NCBI GenBank assembly: GCA_900314975.1
Contig: OMXI01000043.1
Coordinates: 1-36,173, forward strand
Source of the DNA: an uncultured Eubacteriales bacterium
GTDB taxonomy: Bacteria > Bacillota > Clostridia > Oscillospirales > Ruminococcaceae
Direction of reading: 5' to 3'
Length of the DNA: 36,173 nt
Both the position numbers and the translations under genes were made by a program. Below the pieces are notes generated by a model. The model searched no databases, was not told the origin of the DNA, and saw only the letters and a list, made by a program, of their open reading frames with translations. Shown here in pieces: positions 19,046 through 36,173 of this stretch (its first letter is position 1; each line of letters starts with the position of its first letter).

Positions 19046-19310
19046 AATATTTGAAATGCATTGATAAGAACAAGTAAGTCAGCGCAGCAGCGTTCAGAGA
19101 GCTGTCGCCTTGGTGAAAGACAGTACGCAAACGCAGACCGAATACATCTTTGAGCAGGCTGCTCAGAAAGCGGGATTGTACCGCAAAGGCAGCACGGCGG
19201 CGTGCCGTTATAACGCAAAAGGCAGGGGGATACCTCTGCGAACAAAGGTGGTACCGCGATAATTCGCCCTTTGATGAGCAAATGCTTGTCAAAGGGCTGT
19301 TTTTGTTTAA
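19046..19310 (+). ncRNA. T-box leader (tyrosine-specific riboswitch)
   Basis: All classical parts are visible in order: AGAGAG at 19096-19101 in stem I, GGTGAAAG in its tip region, the specifier segment GAATACATC with the Tyr codon TAC at 19143-19145, the T-box AAGGTGGTACCGCG at 19245-19258, and a terminator with a 9-bp stem (GCCCTTTGA/TCAAAGGGC at 19266-19297) and a T-run. UGGU in the T-box pairs with a tRNA ending ACCA, as tRNA-Tyr does. Uncharged tRNA-Tyr should stabilise the antiterminator and switch on the three downstream genes, of which the third is tyrS. Confidence 0.95.
19266..19308 (+). terminator. T-box terminator
   Basis: GCCCTTTGA pairs with TCAAAGGGC around a 14-base loop, followed by TGTTTTTGTTT. 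The 5' arm competes with the antiterminator formed by the T-box sequence immediately upstream. Confidence 0.9.
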
Positions 19311-20891: not shown

Positions 20892-22109
20892 ATGACTTGT
20901 TACGAAGAACTTGTAAGGCGCGGGCTTATCGCGCAGGTCACAGACGAAAAAGAGATAAGCGATATGATAAACAACGGAAAGGCGACCTTCTATATCGGCT
21001 TTGACCCCACAGCCGACAGCCTGCACGTTGGACACTTTATGGCGCTTTGCCTTATGAAAAGACTGCAAATGGCAGGCAATAAGCCCATAGCCCTGCTCGG
21101 CGGCGGTACGGGAATGATAGGCGACCCGTCGGGCAAGACGGATATGCGCAAAATGCTCACCAAGGAAACTATCGAGCATAACGTAGAGTGCTTTAAAAAG
21201 CAGATGTCACGCTTTATCGACTTTTCAGACGGCAAAGCAATGGTAGTCAACAATGCCGACTGGCTGCTCGACCTCAACTATATCGACGTTCTGCGCGAGG
21301 TAGGCGCGTGCTTCTCGGTAAACAAAATGCTCACCTTTGAGTGCTATAAGCAGCGTATGGAAAGAGGACTCACATTCCTTGAGTTCAACTATATGATAAT
21401 GCAGTCCTACGACTTCTATATGCTCTTTAAAAAGTACGGCTGCAATATGCAGTTCGGCGGTGACGACCAGTGGGCAAATATGCTCGGCGGCACAGAGCTT
21501 ATCCGTAAAAAGCTCGGCAAGGACGCCCACGCGATGACAATCACCCTGCTCCTCAATTCCGAGGGACAGAAAATGGGCAAGACGGTCGGAGGAGCAGTAT
21601 GGCTTGACCCTGAAAAGACATCTCCGTATGATTTCTACCAGTACTGGAGAAACGTCGGCGACGCGGACGTTATCAAGTGCCTCAAGCTGCTCACATTTGT
21701 TCCTATCGAGCAGATAGAGGAAATGGAGAAAACGCTTCAGGGCGCAGAGCTTAACAAAGCCAAGGAGCTTCTCGCGTTTGAGCTTACCAAGCTCGTTCAC
21801 GGCGAGGCAGAGGCTAAAAAAGCTGACGATGCCGCAAAAGCAATTTTTGCAAAGGGCGGCGTGAGTGACGATATGCCTACCACCGAGATAGACGCAGCAG
21901 ACCTTGACAGCGGCAAAATAGGTATCCTCACCCTGCTTGTAAAGTGCGGACTTTGCGCATCAAACGGCGACGCAAGAAGGCTCGTCACACAGGGCGGCGT
22001 AACTATCAATGACGAAAAAGCCACCGACCCCAAAGCAATGATAGACCTCTCCAATGCCGTCATCATCAAAAAGGGCAAAAAAGTATTCCACAAAGCAGTA
22101 GCAAAGTAA
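20892..22109 (+). CDS. tyrS: tyrosyl-tRNA synthetase
   Basis: Charges tRNA-Tyr with tyrosine. The 405-aa protein is a full-length class I enzyme: HVGH (HIGH motif) at 45-48, [10 protein letters not shown] at 78-86, the tyrosine-pocket [10 protein letters not shown] near 166-175, QFGGDDQW at 187-194, KMGKT (KMSKS motif) at 227-231 and an S4 RNA-binding domain from about 340 to the end. The start has CGGAGGA. It is the third gene behind a tyrosine T-box with no other promoter visible in the 23-base gap before it, so its control must come through the two unknown genes upstream. A strong hairpin terminator follows. Confidence 0.97.
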
Positions 22110-22131
22110 AAATTACATAGCATAAGAAAAA

Positions 22132-22164
22132 AGAGGTTCGGTCTTTTCGACTGAACCTCTTTTG
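22132..22164. terminator. bidirectional terminator after tyrS
   Basis: A 12-bp stem (AGAGGTTCGGTC with the matching arm, one G-U pair) with a TTTT loop, followed by TTTT on the + strand and preceded by an A-run that reads as a T-run on the minus strand. It can stop tyrS transcripts and those coming from the DHHW gene. Confidence 0.9.
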
Positions 22165-22446
22165 TCTTGATAGGGTAGTTTATTGTGGGTATTCTCTTGG
22201 GAGTGTTTTTTTCTCAAACTCTCTTTTCTGAACTCTCTATTACTTTTTCGTTATTTGGGTCAAAGACCCAAATGGCGAAAAAGCATTAAAAGGTTTAGGA
22301 ATGGGGGTATAGCGACCTGCGGTCGCTTGCGAGAATATCCAAAGGATATTCTCGGGGGGATAACGGAGTAACCGTGGTAACGGTTACTCCCAAGAGAACG
22401 GCTTTGCCGTTCTCGACCTTCATCCAAAAGGGTTTCCCCCAACAAA
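22165..22446. other. intergenic block of consecutive perfect hairpins (locus A)
   Basis: No gene is supported here. Five perfect inverted repeats follow one another: 22243-22283 (8+9 bp with a 2x2 internal loop), 22311-22327 (7 bp), 22330-22354 (11 bp), 22365-22390 (10 bp) and 22394-22414 (9 bp). Four have 3-base loops and one (22365-22390) a 6-base loop. TGGGGG at 22302-22307 can pair with CCCCCA at 22436-22441 to close the last four as a multibranch. A 13-base perfect long-range repeat (22192-22204 with 22386-22398) would compete with the last two hairpins. This looks like a structured RNA or a composite palindromic repeat; orientation is unknown. Confidence 0.8.
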
Positions 22447-23592
22447 TCACTCTATCCAAACAAAATTGTTGTCCGAGTTAAGAAAATCCACATTATAAAG
22501 CAAGATCACCTTGTCGATATTATTCTGCTTTATGTATTCCGAAACGGTCAGCGCCTGAATGTGATAGAACCGCAGGTCTATCATCGTCACGTCCGAGTAC
22601 ATGCTTGTAAAGTACGGCATAGCGCAGTTAGCGTAGCTGTCCTTTAGTATCAGCACCTTCTCGTCCTTCTGTGCGTTTGTGGACTTGATATTCACGTTTG
22701 CGTAGTTGCCGCCGAAGAAAACCGAGTACTTGTCCTTCTTGTCCTCAAATGACGAGTCAAACAGACTGTCCGCCGTCTTTTTCTCACTAACGTACTCAAC
22801 GTTCAGCGAGTTTCCCTTGTCCGTGTACAGCTTCATCTTTTCCTTGTCTGCAAATGCCGACGGAGCCTTTGAGTACAGCGTCCCGAGGAACCCGTCAAGC
22901 TCGCGCACATCGTAATCCGCTTTCAGCTCGCCCTCGCCCATAAACTTCATCAGCCCGTCAAAGCCCACGCGCGCACCGTCCGAAGTCCAGTGGTGGTCGG
23001 TCTTGTAGTACGCCTGTACGCCGCTTTCCACCGCAGCTTTTAGGTCGCTCATCGGGCAGTAGAACTTTATCTTTTCGTCAAGCATACCCTCGACCTTGTC
23101 GATAGTCTTTTGCTGGCTGCCTGTAGTGTTCACCTTGGGCAGCTTGTCGTCCATAACACTAATGCTGTTCGGCACAAGCATAAAATTGATGTCCGTATCG
23201 GGACACAGCTTTGCAAGGTCGTTTATGCACCCGACGTTCTTTTCGACCTGCTTGGTGTTTTCCTTGTAGTCCTGTAAATAGTAGCCGTCCTTGCCAAAGT
23301 ATACGCCGTTTTGCAGATCGTGCATCAGCAGCCTGTCGCTGTCGGTTTTCAGCGTAACCAGCTCGTCCTTTAGCGGCAGCTGGTCCGACATATACTTTTC
23401 AAGCCCGTCCGTAAAGCTGCCGTCCTTCAGATTTTTCCACGAGAATTCGGGGAACTGTGCAAGGTTGCGGTTTTCCATCTCCGAGAACTTTCTGTCTTTT
23501 AGCAGAAAGCTCCACACCGCAAAACCGAAAATAAACACAATAAATACGCTGACCATAATTATCTGCGATATCTTTTCCATCTTCTTGTTCAT
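22447..23592 (-). CDS. DHHW/AlgX-like protein partner of MBOAT
   Basis: A 381-aa protein with one N-terminal membrane anchor at about 8-30 and an extracytoplasmic SGNH-like domain. The DHHW motif is at 199-202 (KTDHHWTSDG) and KDSYANC with the probable catalytic serine S319 follows, the layout of the DHHW family and of AlgX/AlgJ acetylation proteins. The ATG at 23590-23592 is used because the upstream in-frame GTG belongs to the ribosome site AGGGGGTG. It lies 12 bases after the MBOAT gene; the pair is expected to pass acetyl groups to an extracellular polysaccharide or other wall polymer. Confidence 0.92.
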   Translation of the reverse strand: MNKKMEKISQIIMVSVFIVFIFGFAVWSFLLKDRKFSEMENRNLAQFPEFSWKNLKDGSFTDGLEKYMSDQLPLKDELVTLKTDSDRLLMHDLQNGVYFGKDGYYLQDYKENTKQVEKNVGCINDLAKLCPDTDINFMLVPNSISVMDDKLPKVNTTGSQQKTIDKVEGMLDEKIKFYCPMSDLKAAVESGVQAYYKTDHHWTSDGARVGFDGLMKFMGEGELKADYDVRELDGFLGTLYSKAPSAFADKEKMKLYTDKGNSLNVEYVSEKKTADSLFDSSFEDKKDKYSVFFGGNYANVNIKSTNAQKDEKVLILKDSYANCAMPYFTSMYSDVTMIDLRFYHIQALTVSEYIKQNNIDKVILLYNVDFLNSDNNFVWIE

Positions 23593-23604
23593 CACGCGCA
23601 CCCC

Positions 23605-32884: not shown

Positions 32885-33374
32885 ATAAAACCGCCCACAT
32901 TTGTTACCTGTTTGTTAATTCAAAAAACTGAAAAACCATACCCTAAAGAAAAATGCGGTCATAAACCAACCGCACCTCCTTATTCAACCCATATCCCCAA
33001 AAAACAGTATTTATGGGTCTGCACTACCTTTAAGGACTTGCCAAAGACAAGACAGGTTTTTCGGTCCAGCCTTTTCTCGTAAAAAAGGCTGGCGGGTCAA
33101 GGGCAGAGCCCTTGCCGCCGTCCGCAGACGAATACCCTGACGCTTCGCGCGCTCGGCAAGGGGTGAATTTCAAACAGTCCTGTGGACTGTTTGAAAGAGG
33201 GGACGCCCTGCAAGAGAGGGCGTGCCACTACGGAGAATACACTCACTATTTTTCCGCAATCCGCCTGCAAAAAGGCGGATTGAATGGCTCTTGTTTAGGG
33301 GGCTTTCCGGTCGCCCCCTAAAACCCCTTCGGGCATACCTCTACTAATTTGATAATAGTACAAATACTGATCTG
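32885..33374. other. 490-base intergenic region with consecutive hairpins (locus B)
   Basis: No gene is supported. The part from 33066 to 33322 contains six strong inverted repeats in a row: 33066-33092 (10 bp), 33091-33119 (12 bp with a 2-base bulge), 33168-33196 (13 bp, 3-base loop), 33203-33223 (7 bp), 33257-33282 (9 to 10 bp) and 33294-33322 (10 bp). It is bounded by the thiI stop on one side and the CinA-like gene start on the other. It resembles locus A in architecture but not in sequence. The remainder is AT-rich leader of the CinA-like gene with a GTTACCTGTTTGTTAA motif. Confidence 0.75.
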
Positions 33375-36038: not shown

Positions 36039-36173
36039 TTAATAATCTCCCTTTTTACAAAAGCGTTCCTGATATAAATCAGAATTTGTGCACAGCGTGC
36101 ACCACGCAATTCCGTCGCATATCAGTTTGAATTGGCAACGACTTTCGTGCGGCTCCGGGCTTTCATTTTGTGA
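36039..36173 (-). CDS. C-terminal part of a Cys-rich protein (cut by window edge)
   Basis: The frame is open from the window edge for 44 codons and ends at TAA just before the ribosome site of the cysteine desulfurase. The sequence includes CQFKLICDG, AWCTLC and ERFCKKGDY, with five cysteines in about 30 residues, which suggests a metal or disulfide-bearing small protein. Codon use is like the neighbouring genes. If real, it is the upstream member of the desulfurase operon. The reading is short, so a chance frame cannot be fully excluded. Confidence 0.5.
   Translation of the reverse strand, partial: SQNESPEPHESRCQFKLICDGIAWCTLCTNSDLYQERFCKKGDY

Follow-up and report, generated by a model that had tools for sequence, protein, structure and literature searches.

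A hairpin array beyond tyrS in an uncultured Ruminococcaceae genome as a putative copy of a modular, dispersed repeat with inverted flanks

A hairpin array between convergent genes

The contig OMXI01000043.1 of an uncultured Ruminococcaceae bacterium (36,173 nucleotides, hereafter the window) carries five perfect hairpins in a row between the ends of two genes. As the upstream gene has its own terminator, what is this array? The gene in question is tyrS, on the plus strand, whose stop codon ends at 22109; it is followed by a terminator hairpin near 22130-22164 and then by the array (locus A). On the other side lies a convergent minus-strand gene (22447-23601, stop codon 22447-22449). The hairpins stand where the first-pass annotation had placed them, at 22253-22273 (9 bp), 22311-22327 (7 bp), 22330-22354 (11 bp), 22365-22390 (11 bp) and 22394-22414 (9 bp), counting non-overlapping, perfect arms of at least 7 bp with loops of 3-6 bases. 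This is well above chance: five hairpins were found in 0 of 1000 dinucleotide shuffles of 22165-22446 (mean 0.083, maximum 2) and in 3 of the 718 segments of 282 bases that cover the window, all three over locus A.

The 13-base match of 22192-22204 to the reverse complement of 22386-22398 is exact. A 6-bp stem (22302-22307 with 22436-22441) had been read as closing four of the hairpins; it is present, but the comparative fold described below pairs 22435-22440 with GGGGGA at 22355-22360 instead. A further outer stem had been missed, and joins 22169-22189 with 22436-22456 across the stop codon of the convergent gene. Locus A had also been taken to lie beyond a normal terminator and so not to be needed for termination. 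This agrees with a simple scan of 22050-22520 (a weak test that also misses the evident tyrS hairpin), which detected no intrinsic terminator, defined as a G/C stem and then a U run; downstream of 22442 there is no run of T. A promoter-like site at 22167-22195 (9 of 12) was discarded as being at chance level (one found against 0.7 expected).

No Rfam family scored above its gathering threshold at locus A. Relaxed thresholds gave sub-threshold matches only, mostly to microRNA hairpin models and some to bacterial sRNA, none near its gathering score. The HEARO/omega RNA (RF02033) had no match in the same genome, a weak negative, as the control matched nowhere either.

Copies, modules and fold

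A search with the 282 bases matched 68 stretches of the same genome (G000) at E <= 0.001. Several contigs of this genome begin within a copy (C85:1, C21:2, C25:1, C14:1), so the copy number is probably underestimated. Among the 61 genomes searched, 10 others gave DNA-level matches, all within one genus, and none was found in the 32 other genera of this sample. The evidence is weak for two of the ten: G026 gave a single match (E 1.6e-4), and that of G001, also single, lies on a contig with 95.7% identity to a G000 locus and is suspected contamination, since the tyrS of G001 is only 74% identical and the contamination of this genome is 7%. Among the matches listed (80 loci, at least 95 stretches), carriers of the 3' end motif include the rumen Ruminococcus MAGs RUG13219, RUG13226 and RUG13311, other Clostridiales/Clostridia MAGs and the isolate Ruminococcus sp. 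FC2018. A covariance model of the P2-P domain (see below) found relatives in 7 of 244 other genomes of the order, in three further genera of the same family, the match in genus g34 being weak (best E 2.6e-5). Copies in these other genera appear by eye nearly symmetric, with a terminal hairpin at each end. The earlier suggestion of a composite palindromic repeat is borne out by these homologous copies at many places: judged by sequence comparison, locus A belongs, as a single copy, to a dispersed high-copy repeat and is not a unique switch.

From 97 loci and the window, 113 chains were obtained, and copies among them were aligned in three sets (A1, 24 of 28 long copies; A2, 15 of 18 short copies; A3, 32 of 39). 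Copies are short (about 160-260 bp), non-coding and numerous, and follow one order: a 5' part, the P2 stem around the hypervariable hairpin P, the conserved strand ATTAAAAGGTTTAGGAA, the optional hairpins H1-H4 and a 3' closing stem. The H1-H4 array is absent from short copies, and units are duplicated in L066 and L069; as in BOX-type elements, there are end modules with a middle module that is optional or repeated. At locus A the parts are as follows, with the evidence in brackets.

22169-22456, plus strand: whole element including outer arms, one copy of the family (repeat matches, flank pairing, copy comparison)
22169-22189, plus strand: left outer arm, complementary (with G.U pairs) to 22436-22456 (flank pairing)
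22219-22234, plus strand: 5' side of the P2 stem (comparative fold, helix 3)
22243-22283, plus strand: P, a long hypervariable hairpin (double changes in 17 of 19 pairs)
22285-22301, plus strand: ATTAAAAGGTTTAGGAA, a strongly conserved strand overlapping the 3' side of P2 (long- and short-copy alignments)
22292-22307, plus strand: 3' side of the P2 stem (comparative fold, helix 3; G.U 108 against A.C 9)
22311-22327, plus strand: H1, optional hairpin (perfect arms, alignment, fold)
22330-22354, plus strand: H2, optional hairpin (perfect arms, alignment, fold)
22355-22360, plus strand: 5' side of the closing stem, GGGGGA (comparative fold, helix 8)
22365-22390, plus strand: H3, optional hairpin (perfect arms, alignment, fold)
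22394-22414, plus strand: H4, optional hairpin (perfect arms, alignment, fold)
22415-22442, plus strand: 3' end module including the 3' side of the closing stem, TCCCCC at 22435-22440 (alignments, fold)
22436-22456, plus strand: right outer arm, covering the minus-strand gene's stop codon at 22447-22449 (flank pairing)

Copies are found at unrelated genes and in every orientation. To judge from crude ORF calls, 44 of 62 copies are followed on the right by a minus-strand gene, which makes the plus strand of the element usually antisense to its neighbour; at one site the core is, by eye, oppositely oriented in G000 and G009. At L337 and L032, G000 and G006 are 100% identical over 263 bases beside an insertion found in G000 only, an identity that may reflect a recent exchange.

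On the 24 long copies the named structure comprises 97 pairs. Paired cells make up 92.6% against 84.3% in shuffles, double changes occur in 47 pairs against 27.1 and in 198 cells against 64.4, and 0 of 500 shuffles reached these figures, although the test favours the structure because it was predicted from the same alignment. Slid versions of the structure are 39-57% paired. The arms therefore change with compensation across copies, and the idea of an undescribed structured element holds up.

Wobble marks are distributed unequally among the domains. P2 has 108 G.U and 9 A.C cells, P has 32 and 5 (140 against 14 for P2-P together) and the two small 5' helices have 64 and 29, whereas H1-H4 combined have 9 and 18, with no plus-strand bias, and the outer arms 182 and 170, with no strand bias; the copies are related, so these cells are not independent events. 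Since G.U cells exceed A.C cells in P2-P, the pattern favours a folded plus strand there, which would be a selected single strand and most simply an RNA. The lack of strand bias in the outer arms speaks against RNA selection on them. Because one domain has the wobble signature and the adjoining hairpins and outer arms do not, the family could serve as a natural test, within one element, of whether hairpin covariation stems from RNA selection or from template switching. It also urges caution, as covariation by itself could get such a locus called a riboswitch.

Inverted flanks and their possible origin

Flank tests could be run on 61 sufficiently complete chains of the 113, and 59 had 140-base flanks. 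Flanks of the 61 copies paired with a mean of -29.6 kcal/mol to their own partners and -17.9 kcal/mol to foreign ones, and 35 copies had their own partner among the three best of 61. For the 59 copies with 140-base flanks, pairing exceeded the copy's own control in 49. When the G/C ends of the core were excluded, pairing surpassed every one of 200 shuffles in 31 of 59 copies and lay within 5% in 42, while 17 of 59 had no significant inverted repeat. A guide-RNA reading, with the 5' arm as a targeting guide, was rejected here: foreign arms pair far less well, so no shared guides are evident.

In many copies the arms are locus-specific and about 20-75 bp long, and the left one is usually the non-native one across the family. 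Some reach into coding sequence, namely the end of argC (L082, L096), the start of mnmE (L068; both names come from reading translations) and the end of the gene left of L307. In a set of 11 loci, 10 beat all 300 shuffles (the exception being L030, at 20 of 300), but this is not a random sample because the loci were chosen by hand, mostly with visible arms, and the unselected figure is 42 of 59. None of 17 unoccupied orthologous sites beat all shuffles (18 tests; the two nearest cases stood at 10 of 300). These were orthologs without the core; occupied ones were excluded (e.g., L318-L321, L323-L325, L331, L332, L334, L339-L341, L347, L354), as were some sites of L079, L102 and L110. Many copies sit in an inverted repeat, one arm of which can be native gene sequence, unlike the unoccupied orthologous sites.

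Comparison between copies adds detail. G237 has nine closely similar elements whose outer arms differ from place to place; in three of them the arms match perfectly, over 34, 39 and 26 bp, and in the other six imperfectly; orthologs of these sites in its genus are without these arms or have other copies, and the native arm is not distinguishable. In the orthologous pairs B, C and E, every left arm pairs more closely with its own right arm than with that of the other species, in all six comparisons. The arms of pairs A and J have hardly diverged, and own and foreign fits are equal there (two of four comparisons). Both arms of L064 look inserted, which goes against one arm always being native.

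How might such flanks be made? We consider the chances evenly balanced that locus A is a copy of a modular, MITE-like mobile repeat whose inverted flanks arise by snap-back copying at insertion, followed by template-switch matching of the palindromes. At insertion, one element end would join the target. The free 3' end could then fold back through short terminal G/C complementarity and copy the flank, leaving an inverted flank duplication, and later DNA-polymerase template switching would keep the palindromes matched. One published account attributes the matching of inverted-repeat arms and the inversion of spacers to template switching (PMC8604942), and another describes it as making and maintaining RNA hairpins (PMC8794818). 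Small hairpins and arms may thus co-vary without RNA selection, because template switching would match the palindromes. The narrower proposal, that on insertion as much as about 75 bp of the target's flank is duplicated in inverse orientation on the element's other side, by snap-back synthesis from its folded end, and that covariation is partly mutational, is advanced tentatively and with rather more doubt. If true, such insertions would turn gene ends into giant hairpins, which template switching then keeps matched. Inverted flank duplication across so many insertion sites would imply a mode of transposition or repair for which the open-licence papers searched gave no example among bacterial repeats, and the flanks seen here hint at such a process. 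No fresh insertion with an exact empty allele was found among the sites compared. The element is probably selfish and tolerated at gene ends, and a host function is possible.

The outer arms could instead be fast-changing terminal inverted repeats. An ordinary MITE moved by a cellular transposase, whose terminal inverted repeats diverge quickly and are still paired, would account for the ~340-bp units with TAAATCAGAATTT-like inverted-repeat ends that recur at unrelated sites (L046, L109, L111, L112, L115, L116), for the presence of that end motif 98 times in the same genome against 0 for the reversed pattern, and for the two seemingly inserted arms of L064. Such ends are seen in some copies and locus-specific arms in many others, and the reading is unlikely, if far from negligible: the arms in argC, mnmE and the L307 gene are native and present alone at unoccupied orthologs, and the G237 elements are closely similar yet have unrelated outer arms. 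Alternatively, the element might insert into the loops of pre-existing palindromes such as terminators, and the arms would be the old palindrome. Some arms in G172 and G247 do resemble terminator stems (L299, L300), but with a significant palindrome at 0 of 17 unoccupied orthologous sites, and with arms of 34-75 bp that enter coding sequence unlike usual terminators, we find this improbable.

No mobilising enzyme was identified in searches that covered RVT_1 and Y1_Tnp. The sole RVT_1 match in G000 is a UG26-type reverse transcriptase (PADLOC model, E 9.3e-154), which in a SINE-like scheme would reverse transcribe the element RNA into gene ends. Nine of the 11 element-bearing genomes of the genus have this enzyme and the fold lies on the plus strand, but tyrS identity shows the same nine to be just the nearest relatives, and the enzyme's own upstream RNA has, by eye, no evident likeness to the core. 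The scheme is kept as a rival only, and a very improbable one, because seven carriers in other genera lack a UG26 match. What, then, of the two-state switch that the first-pass annotation had seen in the 13-base pairing? A cis-acting RNA switch for the adjoining genes would suit the stable fold, its covariation and the exact pairing at locus A. That pairing, however, is complete in this copy only, and just 7 of the 24 long ones retain at least 11 of its 13 pairs. In short copies the 5' segment persists without its partner, and copies lie beside unrelated genes in all orientations. The comparison gives the switch no support, and we regard it as extremely improbable.

Known repeats and neighbouring elements

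REP palindromes are dispersed, extragenic and moved by Y1 transposases. They share with this repeat the character of dispersed extragenic palindromes, although this repeat is much longer and multi-domain. A Y1-transposase REP system was rejected, there being 0 Y1_Tnp matches in G000 and G006.

The nearest known kind is a BOX-like modular MITE, from which the repeat is set apart by its inverted flanks. BOX elements of Streptococcus pneumoniae are likewise small, dispersed and modular with many intergenic copies, have a middle module (boxB) that can be absent or repeated and have an extensive predicted RNA fold (PMC3049150); the likeness is drawn from these descriptions. BOX is reported there to cause target-site duplications, whereas none was noticed for this repeat at sites read unsystematically, and the inverted native-flank copies seen here are not mentioned for BOX in that part of the source (PMC3049150). 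MITEs such as Correia are also short, non-coding, multi-copy and gene-adjacent, with inverted-repeat ends and possibly folded transcripts (PMC10969869), but the outer arms of this repeat vary by locus and can be native gene sequence. Template-switch hairpins similarly have arms created or mended by reverse-complement copying; they are local mutation events (PMC8794818, PMC8604942), unlike a dispersed repeat with flanking duplications. Literature on Ruminococcus palindromic intergenic, structured or terminator-linked repeats, MITEs and inverted duplications (open-licence papers only, a weak screen) did not yield a recognisable match to the element.

Other elements occur in the window and the genome. 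The UG26 reverse transcriptase locus lies at about 1130-2514 of L254 (G000:C72, RT match 80967-81593), and further examples are L248, L250-L253 and L256. Upstream of the enzyme, 7 of 8 loci shown have a conserved, probably structured non-coding stretch that differs from the hairpin repeat and has repeated motifs such as GTCTGCG...TTTGCAGAC and ATTAAGC...GCTTAAT. The end motif RATAAATTCTGATTTRT has 98 matches in the same genome (at most 2 mismatches) and 0 for the reversed pattern, one of them in the window at 36074-36090 (minus strand). Several form outward pairs 100-200 bp apart and constitute another MITE family, which encloses the hairpin element at some loci. A second hairpin cluster at 33060-33330 of the window (three per 282 bases) contains GGGGGCTTTCCGGTCGCCCCC, a motif also found beside L036, L079 and L084 and thus another interspersed repeat. 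The only Rfam match in the window is a T-box leader (19052-19274, plus strand, 111.6 bits), which precedes tyrS (20892-22109) by about 1.6 kb, a stretch containing other ORFs.
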